64,000 nucleotides of DNA from Paludibacter sp. GTDB lineage: Bacteria > Bacteroidota > Bacteroidia > Bacteroidales > Paludibacteraceae. This document shows positions 7,454 through 23,067 of the stretch, piece after piece. Under the pieces are notes generated by a model that did not search any database, had not been told where the DNA came from, and worked only from the letters and a program-made list of their open reading frames with translations. A program made the position numbers and the translations under genes. Position 1 is the first letter of the stretch; each line of letters begins with the position of its first letter. The DNA lies in assembly GCF_009712605.1 (NCBI RefSeq), contig NZ_WASO01000014.1:124001-188000 (forward strand), written 5' to 3'.

Positions 7454-7573
7454 TGACAGTTTCTTCAAACAGTGGTTTGCTTAATATGCAAAGGAATATT
7501 CTGAAAATCCTGAAAAAGAGTAAGAAGCAGATGCCGAAAAGCTTTAAGAGTAGGCGACTAAAAAATTACAAGT

Positions 7574-20038: not shown

Positions 20039-20833
20039 CTATTTTATGCCGGATGCACCAGTTAATTCAACGTTCACTTCGCCAATCTTGAGTTTTGAAG
20101 TGACTTTAACCGGTATTTTGGCAGAATCGAGGCTCATCCAAATCGAAATTTTCTCATTTCCTTTGAAAATGGTTCCGGGGACAGTGCTTGCTGCAAACTT
20201 TGCGCACATGTATGACTTGTTGTTGTTGTCTTTGCAGGTCTCGTTTCCTACATACTGAATTTCAATCGGATATATTTTTCCGTTTATGATGGTATTTACA
20301 CGGATTTTTTGATTGAGTTTTAGCTTGGAAAAATCATATTCGCGCATGTAGTAGGCGGCCGACAACATGTCGAAATATCCGTCAGCCTTTTCTATTTTAC
20401 CGGCATTTTTAGTTTTTCCTTCGTTTACAGAAATGTTATAATCGATGGTATTGGCCGAGTCGTTGAAACGATAGTGTTCCTGAGCAGAATAGGATCCTTC
20501 AACTGCATTGCGTCTCGCTTCAATTGGCAATAACGTATTTTTGAATATGGTTGATTCAAAATTTTCACGAACTTTAAAAAAGAGGTCGTACCGTTTGAAA
20601 CTTATTCCGTTTGCTTTGATGGTCAGAAAATTTGGATTTTCGTTTGGTAATACTTTGAGTGTAATGCTGGCTGCCGGTAGCCAGAGGACTCCCCAGTGGT
20701 AATAAGCCTTATACGTTAATACTTCTCCCGGTGCGAAAGATTTCTGGGAAAAGGCTGTGTTTGCAAATGTGATGAAAAAGCACAGAAGAATGAGTTTGCT
20801 GAAGAATGAATATCGTGGCATCGTGTGTGACAT
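20039..20833 (-). CDS. DUF3108 domain-containing exported protein
   Basis: The 264-residue protein has a signal peptide ending near AFSQ and then the DUF3108 fold: FAPGEVLTYKAYYHWGVLW at the start, the RRNAVEGSYSAQEHYRF strand in the middle, and ISIWMSLDSAKIPVKV toward the end. Function is unknown; DUF3108 proteins are periplasmic beta-rich proteins. The open frame goes up to 20854 through a TTG, but that TTG lies inside the -7 box at 20852-20859, so the ATG at 20833 is chosen. It is the protein gene just downstream, on the same strand, of the small-RNA array. Confidence 0.78.
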   Translation of the reverse strand: MSHTMPRYSFFSKLILLCFFITFANTAFSQKSFAPGEVLTYKAYYHWGVLWLPAASITLKVLPNENPNFLTIKANGISFKRYDLFFKVRENFESTIFKNTLLPIEARRNAVEGSYSAQEHYRFNDSANTIDYNISVNEGKTKNAGKIEKADGYFDMLSAAYYMREYDFSKLKLNQKIRVNTIINGKIYPIEIQYVGNETCKDNNNKSYMCAKFAASTVPGTIFKGNEKISIWMSLDSAKIPVKVTSKLKIGEVNVELTGASGIK

Positions 20834-20851
20834 AATACAATTAAATTGATG

Positions 20852-20859
20852 CAAAGATA
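20852..20859 (-). promoter_or_regulatory. -7 box (TATCTTTG) of the DUF3108 gene
   Basis: On the minus strand TATCTTTG lies 18 bases before the ATG at 20833 and overlaps the upstream TTG, which excludes the longer start. Confidence 0.6.
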
Positions 20860-20956: not shown

Positions 20957-21031
20957 ATTTAAAAAAAGAAAGGGTTGTCTCCCGACAACCACAATCAATT
21001 ATTAACCTTAAATCTAATACCATGAAAAACA
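20957..21031 (-). ncRNA. Putative small RNA, array copy 1
   Basis: Read on the minus strand: -33 TTTG (21069-21066), a 21-bp spacer, -7 TATCTTTG (21044-21037), then about 75 transcribed bases ending in a perfect 7-bp hairpin (GGTTGTC with GACAACC, 20990-20973, loop GGGA) followed by CCTTTCTTTTTTT. Start is estimated at 6 bases after the -7 box. The first 42 or so bases match the other copies. No reading frame is kept between copies. The variable segment before the hairpin is the 15-base form, as in copy 2. Confidence 0.7.
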
Positions 21032-21202
21032 CAGTGCAAAGATAAGCGTAAAACGGTTGGTAAACCAAATTTTTTGCACTTTTTTTGTATTGATTAATAG
21101 ACTTTTAATGGAAGATGAATTGGTCGATTGTTTAAGTCGTTGATATGTAGTGTGTTTGGTGTTTTGGGGAAGGAGAGGGAGATTGTGCTTTTTAGTAAGT
21201 AT

Positions 21203-21275
21203 TTAAAAAAGAAAGGGTTGTCTCCCGACAACCACAATCAATTATTAACCTTAAAATCTAATACCATGAAAAACA
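21203..21275 (-). ncRNA. Putative small RNA, array copy 2
   Basis: Minus strand: -33 TTTG (21313-21310), 21-bp spacer, -7 TACCTTTG (21288-21281), about 73 bases, then the same 7-bp hairpin (21233-21216) and CCTTTCTTTTTT. The sequence upstream of the -7 box, TTTGGTTGACC, resembles that of copy 1 (TTTGGTTTACC), so promoters of these two are also related. It has one extra base in the constant region (AAAA instead of AAA at 21253-21256). Confidence 0.7.
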
Positions 21276-21446
21276 CAGTGCAAAGGTAATGGATTTTGAA
21301 CTGGTCAACCAAAATAATTTATATAAATTAATTGATTTTAATTTTCATTTATGTTTTGGATTTCTTGTATTTTGCGTAATGAGCAGATATTTAGTGGGAT
21401 ATTGTGTTTTGTGCTCGTGAGGTAGTGGTATACCAATTTGAGTTTG

Positions 21447-21519
21447 TTTAAAAAAGAAAAGGGTTGTCTCCCGACAACCACAATCCTCATTAACCTTAAA
21501 TCTAATACCATGAAAAACA
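21447..21519 (-). ncRNA. Putative small RNA, array copy 3
   Basis: Minus strand: -33 TTTG (21557-21554), 21-bp spacer, -7 TACCTTTG (21532-21525), about 73 bases, the 7-bp hairpin (21479-21462) and CCTTTTCTTTTTT. The variable segment is one base shorter than in copies 1 and 2, which shifts any reading frame. Overlapping frames at 21338-21556 and 21345-21527 are therefore not believed. Confidence 0.7.
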
Positions 21520-21608
21520 CAGTGCAAAGGTAAGGAGTGGAAAGCACTGTCTCCAAATAATTTGAGGTTTTTTCAAATTAATTTATGTATATTTATGCCA
21601 AATAAAAA

Positions 21609-21636
21609 AGAGTAAAGAATTTGATCTCTTTACTCT
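21609..21636. terminator. Extra hairpin between array copies 3 and 4
   Basis: AGAGTAAAGA (21609-21618) pairs with TCTTTACTCT (21627-21636); T-rich tracts flank it on both strands, so it can end transcripts in either direction. It resembles the hairpin at 18934-18979. Confidence 0.6.
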
Positions 21637-21685
21637 CTTGTTTTTTATTGGAAAGCCAATTTGGCTTGTGGAATAAAATCGAATT

Positions 21686-21755
21686 TAAAATAGAAAGGGT
21701 TGTCTCCCGACAACCACAATCCTTGTTAACCTTAAATCTAATACCATGAAAAACA
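21686..21755 (-). ncRNA. Putative small RNA, array copy 4
   Basis: Minus strand: a CTTG at 21792-21789, a 20-bp spacer, -7 TACCTTTG (21768-21761), about 70 bases, the 7-bp hairpin (21715-21698) and CCTTTCTATTTT. It has one base change in the otherwise constant 5' segment (at 21759 in the plus-strand ACAATG, ACAGTG elsewhere). The poorer -33 box and interrupted T tract make it the weakest copy. Confidence 0.62.
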
Positions 21756-21885
21756 CAATGCAAAGGTACAGTGTATTTTTACGTTTTCCAAGTGGTATGA
21801 ACAAGAACTGTTGGTTATTAACGTAATTTATAGTGAATAAATTTTCTTAACAGATTTATATCGTTGATAATCAGTGGTATTTTGG

Positions 21886-23067
21886 TTATTCAACATATAG
21901 AACAAGTCCCTTTAAATATTCACCTTCAGCATGATATATGTTGATAGGGTGATCCGCCGGCTGGGTTAACTGATGCAGAATTCTTACATTTCGGCCGGAT
22001 TGTGCAGCGGCTGAAAAGACGGCCAGCCTGAATTGTTCCTTTGAAACAACCTGTGAACAGGAGAATGTAAACAGAATTCCGTTAGGTTTGATCTGTTCAA
22101 ATGCTTTCGCATTTAGTTTTCTATAACCCTGTAATGCGTTGCTCAGAACATTCTTGTGTTTTGCGAAAGCCGGTGGATCTAATATGATGAGATCGTATTT
22201 GTCTTTTGCCTGTTCGAGAAACTTGAAAGCATCCTCGGCATAGGCTTCATGTCTTGTCTCGTCGGGGAAATTCAGTGCTACATTTTTGTTGGTGAGTTCT
22301 ATTGCTTTTGCAGAACTGTCAACCGAATGAACAAGCTGTGCTCCCCCTCTCAGAGCATAGAATGAAAAGCCGCCGGTGTAACAAAACATATTGAGAACAG
22401 AACGTCCTTTAGCATATTTTTCAAGTAAAAGACGGTTTTCGCGTTGATCCACGAAAAAACCTGTTTTTTGGCCGCGTAACCAGTCTGCATGAAACCGAAG
22501 TCCATGTTCCATAGCAATGCAATCGGTTTCCTGACCCACCAAATAGGTGTTTTCTGGAGTTACGTCTGCTTTGAATGGTAAAGTTCCTTCTGATTTGTAA
22601 TAAACATTTTCAAGGCCTTTTACGGTTTGCATTAATGCGGAAGCAATGGTGTGACGAACATTGTGTATCGCAACGGTATGCGCCTGTACAACAGCTGTCG
22701 TGTCGTATACATCGATCACAAGTCCCGGAAGATTATCCCCTTCGCCATGTACAAGCCGGTATGTCGTGTTTTGTGGGTTCTGAGCCAGTCCGAGCGTTAC
22801 TCTTATGTTGTAAGCGTTCTGAATTTTTGCCAGCCAGAACTGATCGTTAATTTCCAAGGGTTTGAAGGACAGAATACGAACAGAAATACTTCCGATTTGG
22901 TAGTAGCCTATTGCAATCCATTGTTGTTGTGCGGTGTAAATTTCTACAATGTCACCTTCCTGCGGATTTCCTTCTATGCGATGAATAGCTCCGGAAAAAA
23001 TCCAGGGGTGAAAACGTAAAAGAGCTTCTTCTTTTCCTCTTTTTAGCGTTATTTTCGGTAAAATCAT
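21886..23067 (-). CDS. rlmI: 23S rRNA (cytosine-C5) methyltransferase, RlmI type
   Basis: The 393-residue enzyme has an N-terminal PUA domain (KRGKEEALLRFHPWIFSGAI) and a Rossmann methyltransferase domain with VLNMFCYTGGFSFYAL (SAM binding, about 220), LIILDPPAFAKHK (about 297) and the catalytic Cys in FTFSCSQVV (about 338). Length and domain order match RlmI, which makes m5C1962 in 23S rRNA. Its start overlaps the end of the upstream exonuclease gene by four bases (minus strand), so the two are co-translated. Confidence 0.88.
   Translation of the reverse strand: MILPKITLKRGKEEALLRFHPWIFSGAIHRIEGNPQEGDIVEIYTAQQQWIAIGYYQIGSISVRILSFKPLEINDQFWLAKIQNAYNIRVTLGLAQNPQNTTYRLVHGEGDNLPGLVIDVYDTTAVVQAHTVAIHNVRHTIASALMQTVKGLENVYYKSEGTLPFKADVTPENTYLVGQETDCIAMEHGLRFHADWLRGQKTGFFVDQRENRLLLEKYAKGRSVLNMFCYTGGFSFYALRGGAQLVHSVDSSAKAIELTNKNVALNFPDETRHEAYAEDAFKFLEQAKDKYDLIILDPPAFAKHKNVLSNALQGYRKLNAKAFEQIKPNGILFTFSCSQVVSKEQFRLAVFSAAAQSGRNVRILHQLTQPADHPINIYHAEGEYLKGLVLYVE

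Follow-up and report, generated by a model that had tools for sequence, protein, structure and literature searches.

Four tandem units on the minus strand of the window (the whole 64,000-nucleotide stretch of DNA that was analyzed) are genes for FopS small RNAs, members of Rfam family RF04319. The fuller account, in which these genes serve a proposed repression of SusC leaders that is tuned by an RRM-1 protein and scaled by copy dosage, we regard as highly probable, with its steps in this organism, from transcription through pairing to repression, postulated by analogy with Bacteroides thetaiotaomicron. In that species, FopS was described in 2025 as a set of 14 paralogous small RNAs, each having a canonical promoter, a 5' seed (R1') that is single-stranded and a hairpin terminator; by pairing with mRNAs of SusC-like transporters around the start codon, the seed blocks translation, the RRM-1 protein RbpB antagonizes this repression, and FopS expression goes up with bile salts (PMC11697453). 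What is new here is modest, namely, that four genes stand in a row, that their locus is conserved, and that the family ranges more widely.

A tandem array of four FopS genes

Direct copies of about 85 nt lie at positions 20960, 21204, 21448 and 21684 of the window, at spacings of 244, 244 and 236, within a gap of about 1 kb between an open reading frame that ends at 20854 and another that starts at 21886; these positions bear out an earlier sequence-only reading that had placed four tandem direct repeats in a protein-free gap. On the minus strand, the interval from 20961 to 21756 comprises four predicted transcription units of about 72 nt each (Table 1).

When the whole window was scanned against Rfam 15, all four units matched a single known family, RF04319 (BTncRNA_FopS), over the full model (positions 1 to 71 of 71), with scores of 73.9 to 77.4 bits, 18 to 21 above the gathering cut-off of 56 bits. 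Each match, with an E value of about 1e-9, is far beyond chance, and the 28-base core of the copies is expected to have 0 chance matches in the window. The Rfam scan that the sequence-only reading had proposed thus ends the novelty that it had allowed for, and the observation holds but concerns a known kind of RNA. That reading was right in taking the units for multicopy small-RNA genes of the minus strand, each with its own promoter and terminator and with counterparts in other Bacteroidales, but wrong in suggesting the Bacteroidales-1 RNA motif as their family: a sensitive Rfam scan of the 1-kb gap found no Bacteroidales-1 match even at E values up to 1, and the likeness extends only to the general design of phylum promoter and terminator. 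Elsewhere in the window, at 7491-7526 on the plus strand, Rfam reports a cis-regulatory DUF805b RNA (RF02914; 39.6 bits, cut-off 35.6).

The anatomy of the units is that of FopS as well, in the single-stranded 5' seed, the terminator hairpin and the canonical -7/-33 promoter (PMC11697453). The -33 elements (TTTG in three copies, CTTG in copy 4), the spacers of 21, 21, 21 and 20 bp, and the -7 boxes TATCTTTG, TACCTTTG, TACCTTTG and TACCTTTG are exactly as previously read. TTTG with TAnnTTTG is the published sigma-ABfr consensus (PMC7366714), and this canonical promoter, a trait of FopS, is present in all four units and kept in relatives. A 7-bp hairpin with a T tract had been assigned to each unit, and GGUUGUC-GGGA-GACAACC indeed occurs in 4/4 copies, giving every one of them the 3' Rho-independent terminator hairpin typical of FopS. 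The 5' segment described as nearly constant over 42 bases is shorter than claimed, the constant stretch being the first 31 to 32 bases; the copies equal the Rfam consensus at positions 1 to 31, except for one inserted U in copy 2. This seed is unpaired in the predicted folds of copies 2 and 3 and weakly paired in those of copies 1 and 4. Single-copy folding z-scores are weak (-0.9 to -1.5), as expected because the RNA is mostly unpaired.

A fifth copy lies on another contig (G000:C4:199498-199570; 69.2 bits), so that the genome holds five copies and shares with FopS-bearing Bacteroides the presence of several paralogues alongside RRM-1 proteins and many SusC genes (PMC11697453). FopS as described has 12 to 15 copies, whereas four of the five found here stand in tandem as a single array, at a position that is conserved.

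Table 1. Coordinates of the FopS array and its flanking genes within the window.
Feature	Position	Strand	Basis
DUF3108 protein gene, downstream of array	20039..20854	-	PF11306; same neighbor in genus relatives
FopS sRNA copy 1	20961..21032	-	RF04319, model 1-71, 77.4 bits vs cut-off 56
Terminator hairpin, copy 1 (7 bp + 4-nt loop, then T tract)	20973..20990	-	Sequence, fold, covariation
5' seed region, copy 1, antisense to start-codon region (...CTAATACCATGAAAAACAC)	21002..21032	-	Near-invariance in 29 FopS sequences; seed definition PMC11697453
Promoter, copy 1: TTTG, 21 bp, TATCTTTG	21033..21070	-	Sequence; consensus TTTG/TAnnTTTG (PMC7366714)
FopS sRNA copy 2, with an additional T within the seed region	21204..21276	-	76.1 bits
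Promoter, copy 2: TTTG, 21 bp, TACCTTTG	21277..21314	-	Sequence
FopS sRNA copy 3	21450..21520	-	75.7 bits
Promoter, copy 3: TTTG, 21 bp, TACCTTTG	21521..21558	-	Sequence
FopS sRNA copy 4	21686..21756	-	73.9 bits
Promoter, copy 4: CTTG, 20 bp, TACCTTTG	21757..21793	-	Sequence
RlmI-like SAM-dependent RNA methyltransferase gene, upstream of array	21886..23067	-	PF10672 + PF17785; same neighbor in G002, G005, G006

Candidate targets and mode of action

Each unit would be transcribed from its own Bacteroidetes-type primary-sigma promoter and stopped at its own intrinsic terminator, yielding a transcript some 70 nt long whose 5' seed is unstructured. This seed (5'-GUGUUUUUCAUGGUAUUAGAUUUAAGGUUAA) most likely base-pairs with mRNAs of SusC-like transporters and PUL glycosidases, at start-codon regions resembling AUCUAAUACCAUGAAAAACAC, and such pairing would keep translation from initiating. 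An RbpB-like RRM-1 protein may bind the RNA and tune repression, and the several copies would provide dosage. The genome encodes 29 SusC-family matches above the cut-off and three RRM_1 proteins, one of which is a single-domain protein of 108 aa.

Leaders of SusC genes were compared with 59 other gene starts, start codons being chosen by a single rule throughout, and 1000 shuffled motifs served as controls. In-register similarity to the seed complement averages 17.6 of 31 in the SusC leaders versus 15.6 in the 59 other genes (P = 2.7e-4) and exceeds that of all 1000 shuffled motifs, an enrichment that is modest and in part a product of AT-rich leaders (70% versus 64% AT). A genome-wide search with a 22-nt core, allowing up to 3 mismatches, matched sRNA genes and no mRNA start, a target search with a 28-nt pattern likewise returned sRNA genes only, and near-matches to a 17-nt pattern were no more numerous than those to reversed-pattern controls. 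With SusC leaders enriched as a group, part of that enrichment due to AT-richness, and no near-perfect leader among them, we infer the repression of SusC-type genes in this organism on good grounds.

The units could be FopS genes whose main targets here are other mRNAs that share the common MKK/MKN start context, such as those of stand-alone glycosidases and surface proteins. Individual SusC leaders match the seed complement only partly, and the best start-codon-spanning near-matches belong to glycosidase-like and ankyrin-like genes, not to SusC; they include GH105/GH88-like, GH29-like and sialate acetylesterase-like genes, as assigned by eye. We nevertheless consider this shift in targets unlikely: taken together, the SusC leaders match the seed more closely than do the starts of other genes, and the organism has the same seed as Bacteroides, for which SusC has been tested as the target (PMC11697453).

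Selective conservation and other identities

Two other small RNAs, GibS (RF04182) and BTnc231 (RF04180), share the seed or 5' end with FopS, and the models of both match the same places weakly; apart from FopS, they gave the only matches in the sensitive scan of the 1-kb gap. Their scores of 27 to 55 bits are under the respective cut-offs of 115 and 80.4, reaching at most 55.4 bits for GibS and 55.2 for BTnc231. GibS has the R1 seed in common with the units but differs in its 142-nt model, its second seed (R2) and its PM2 promoter, as opposed to the canonical promoters found here; BTnc231, although similar at the 5' end, has a 154-nt model. That the units belong to either family is very improbable.

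Short peptide genes, on either strand, are an equally poor prospect. The plus strand does read MKNTVQR-stop in three copies, but copy 4 reads through to give a 26-residue peptide, and the minus-strand frames are disrupted by indels between copies. The frame is also shifted in relatives, in which TGTGTTTTCATGG replaces GTGTTTTTCATGG. As had been argued from the DNA alone, the copies have no common reading frame, copy 2 carrying an extra T; the peptides from either strand differ between copies, and peptide readings of both strands were rejected.

The array and its surroundings are conserved in relatives. In two close relatives (G002 and G005), 288/288 positions of the four RNAs are unchanged, whereas spacer identity is 84 to 86%; in a more distant one (G006), the RNAs are 95%, the promoter boxes 88 to 91% and the spacers 55% identical. 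These three genomes keep the order metF, DUF3108, FopS array, RlmI-like gene, and a putative 3'-5' exonuclease-like gene (named by sequence), and the FopS clusters of four further genomes (G001, G003, G004 and G007) are flanked by metF and DUF3108. When 29 distinct FopS sequences, drawn from this genome, from its family and from other families, are aligned, the first 30 bases at the 5' end (the seed) hardly vary, and all seven base pairs of the helix are intact in 29/29 sequences; two-sided changes occur at 5/7 of these pairs, compared with a mean of 0.9 after shuffling. The covariation analysis that had been advised found compensatory changes in the terminator helix, and the alignment pattern is that of a conserved seed and a structural terminator. 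Nonfunctional repeats, as remnants of mobile elements or palindromic repeats, are the least probable explanation of all: FopS copies are present on phage and plasmid records too, but the RNA changes more slowly than the spacer, which already contradicts a remnant, RNA and promoter are selectively conserved, synteny is kept, and the helix changes are compensatory.

FopS across the Bacteroidales

FopS conservation has been reported inside the Bacteroidaceae, by BLAST (PMC11697453), whereas the present host belongs to the Paludibacteraceae. Matches above the cut-off occur in 38/61 genomes of a set of relatives and in 56 of 295 genomes sampled evenly across the order, as well as in named Paludibacter, Coprobacter, Parabacteroides, Prevotella, Tannerella, Massilibacteroides, Phocaeicola and Bacteroides genomes, which agrees with the earlier impression that similar sequences exist in other Bacteroidales. 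FopS is spread through many families of the order, Paludibacteraceae included, and tandem clusters recur, with threes in genomes G008 and G064.

A second FopS subtype, with a seed that starts GATTTTTTCATAGTATTAG and with different hairpins (e.g., GGTAGTAAGGCGTTACTACC), occurs in tandem threes at a spacing of about 285 to 410 bp (loci L187 and L195 in G008 and L189 in Paludibacter sp. G064). Coprobacter secundus (G066, L192; G066:C6:33500-44500) has further FopS clusters, with one gene at most 0.4 kb from metF, which suggests that the metF neighborhood may be an old FopS locus across families.

Bacteroides phage BX-TP2, which encodes a Mor-like activator, carries a FopS-like sequence roughly 1 kb inside one end of its genome (L196 962-1040; PQ571285.1 44785-44863). 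Several more phage and "plasmid" records, some of them of similar size (e.g., B. finegoldii, 45.8 to 45.9 kb), have FopS within a few hundred bases of an end; such sequences could be cargo of the phage or else host DNA joined to a phage end.

FopS might be an order-wide regulator of the Bacteroidales and not a gut specialty of the Bacteroidaceae, deployed here as a tandem dosage array at a fixed position beside metF, with targets and signals unlike those of the B. thetaiotaomicron bile-salt/host-glycan circuit, a view that we hold only tentatively and think somewhat less probable than its opposite. Comparison across genomes, through the invariance of the seed, the compensatory changes in the terminator and the retention of promoters and synteny, lends independent support to a recently described regulatory RNA family, and that family reaches well beyond the Bacteroidaceae. 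A genome with five copies offers a simple setting for dosage tests, through removal of one four-gene array.
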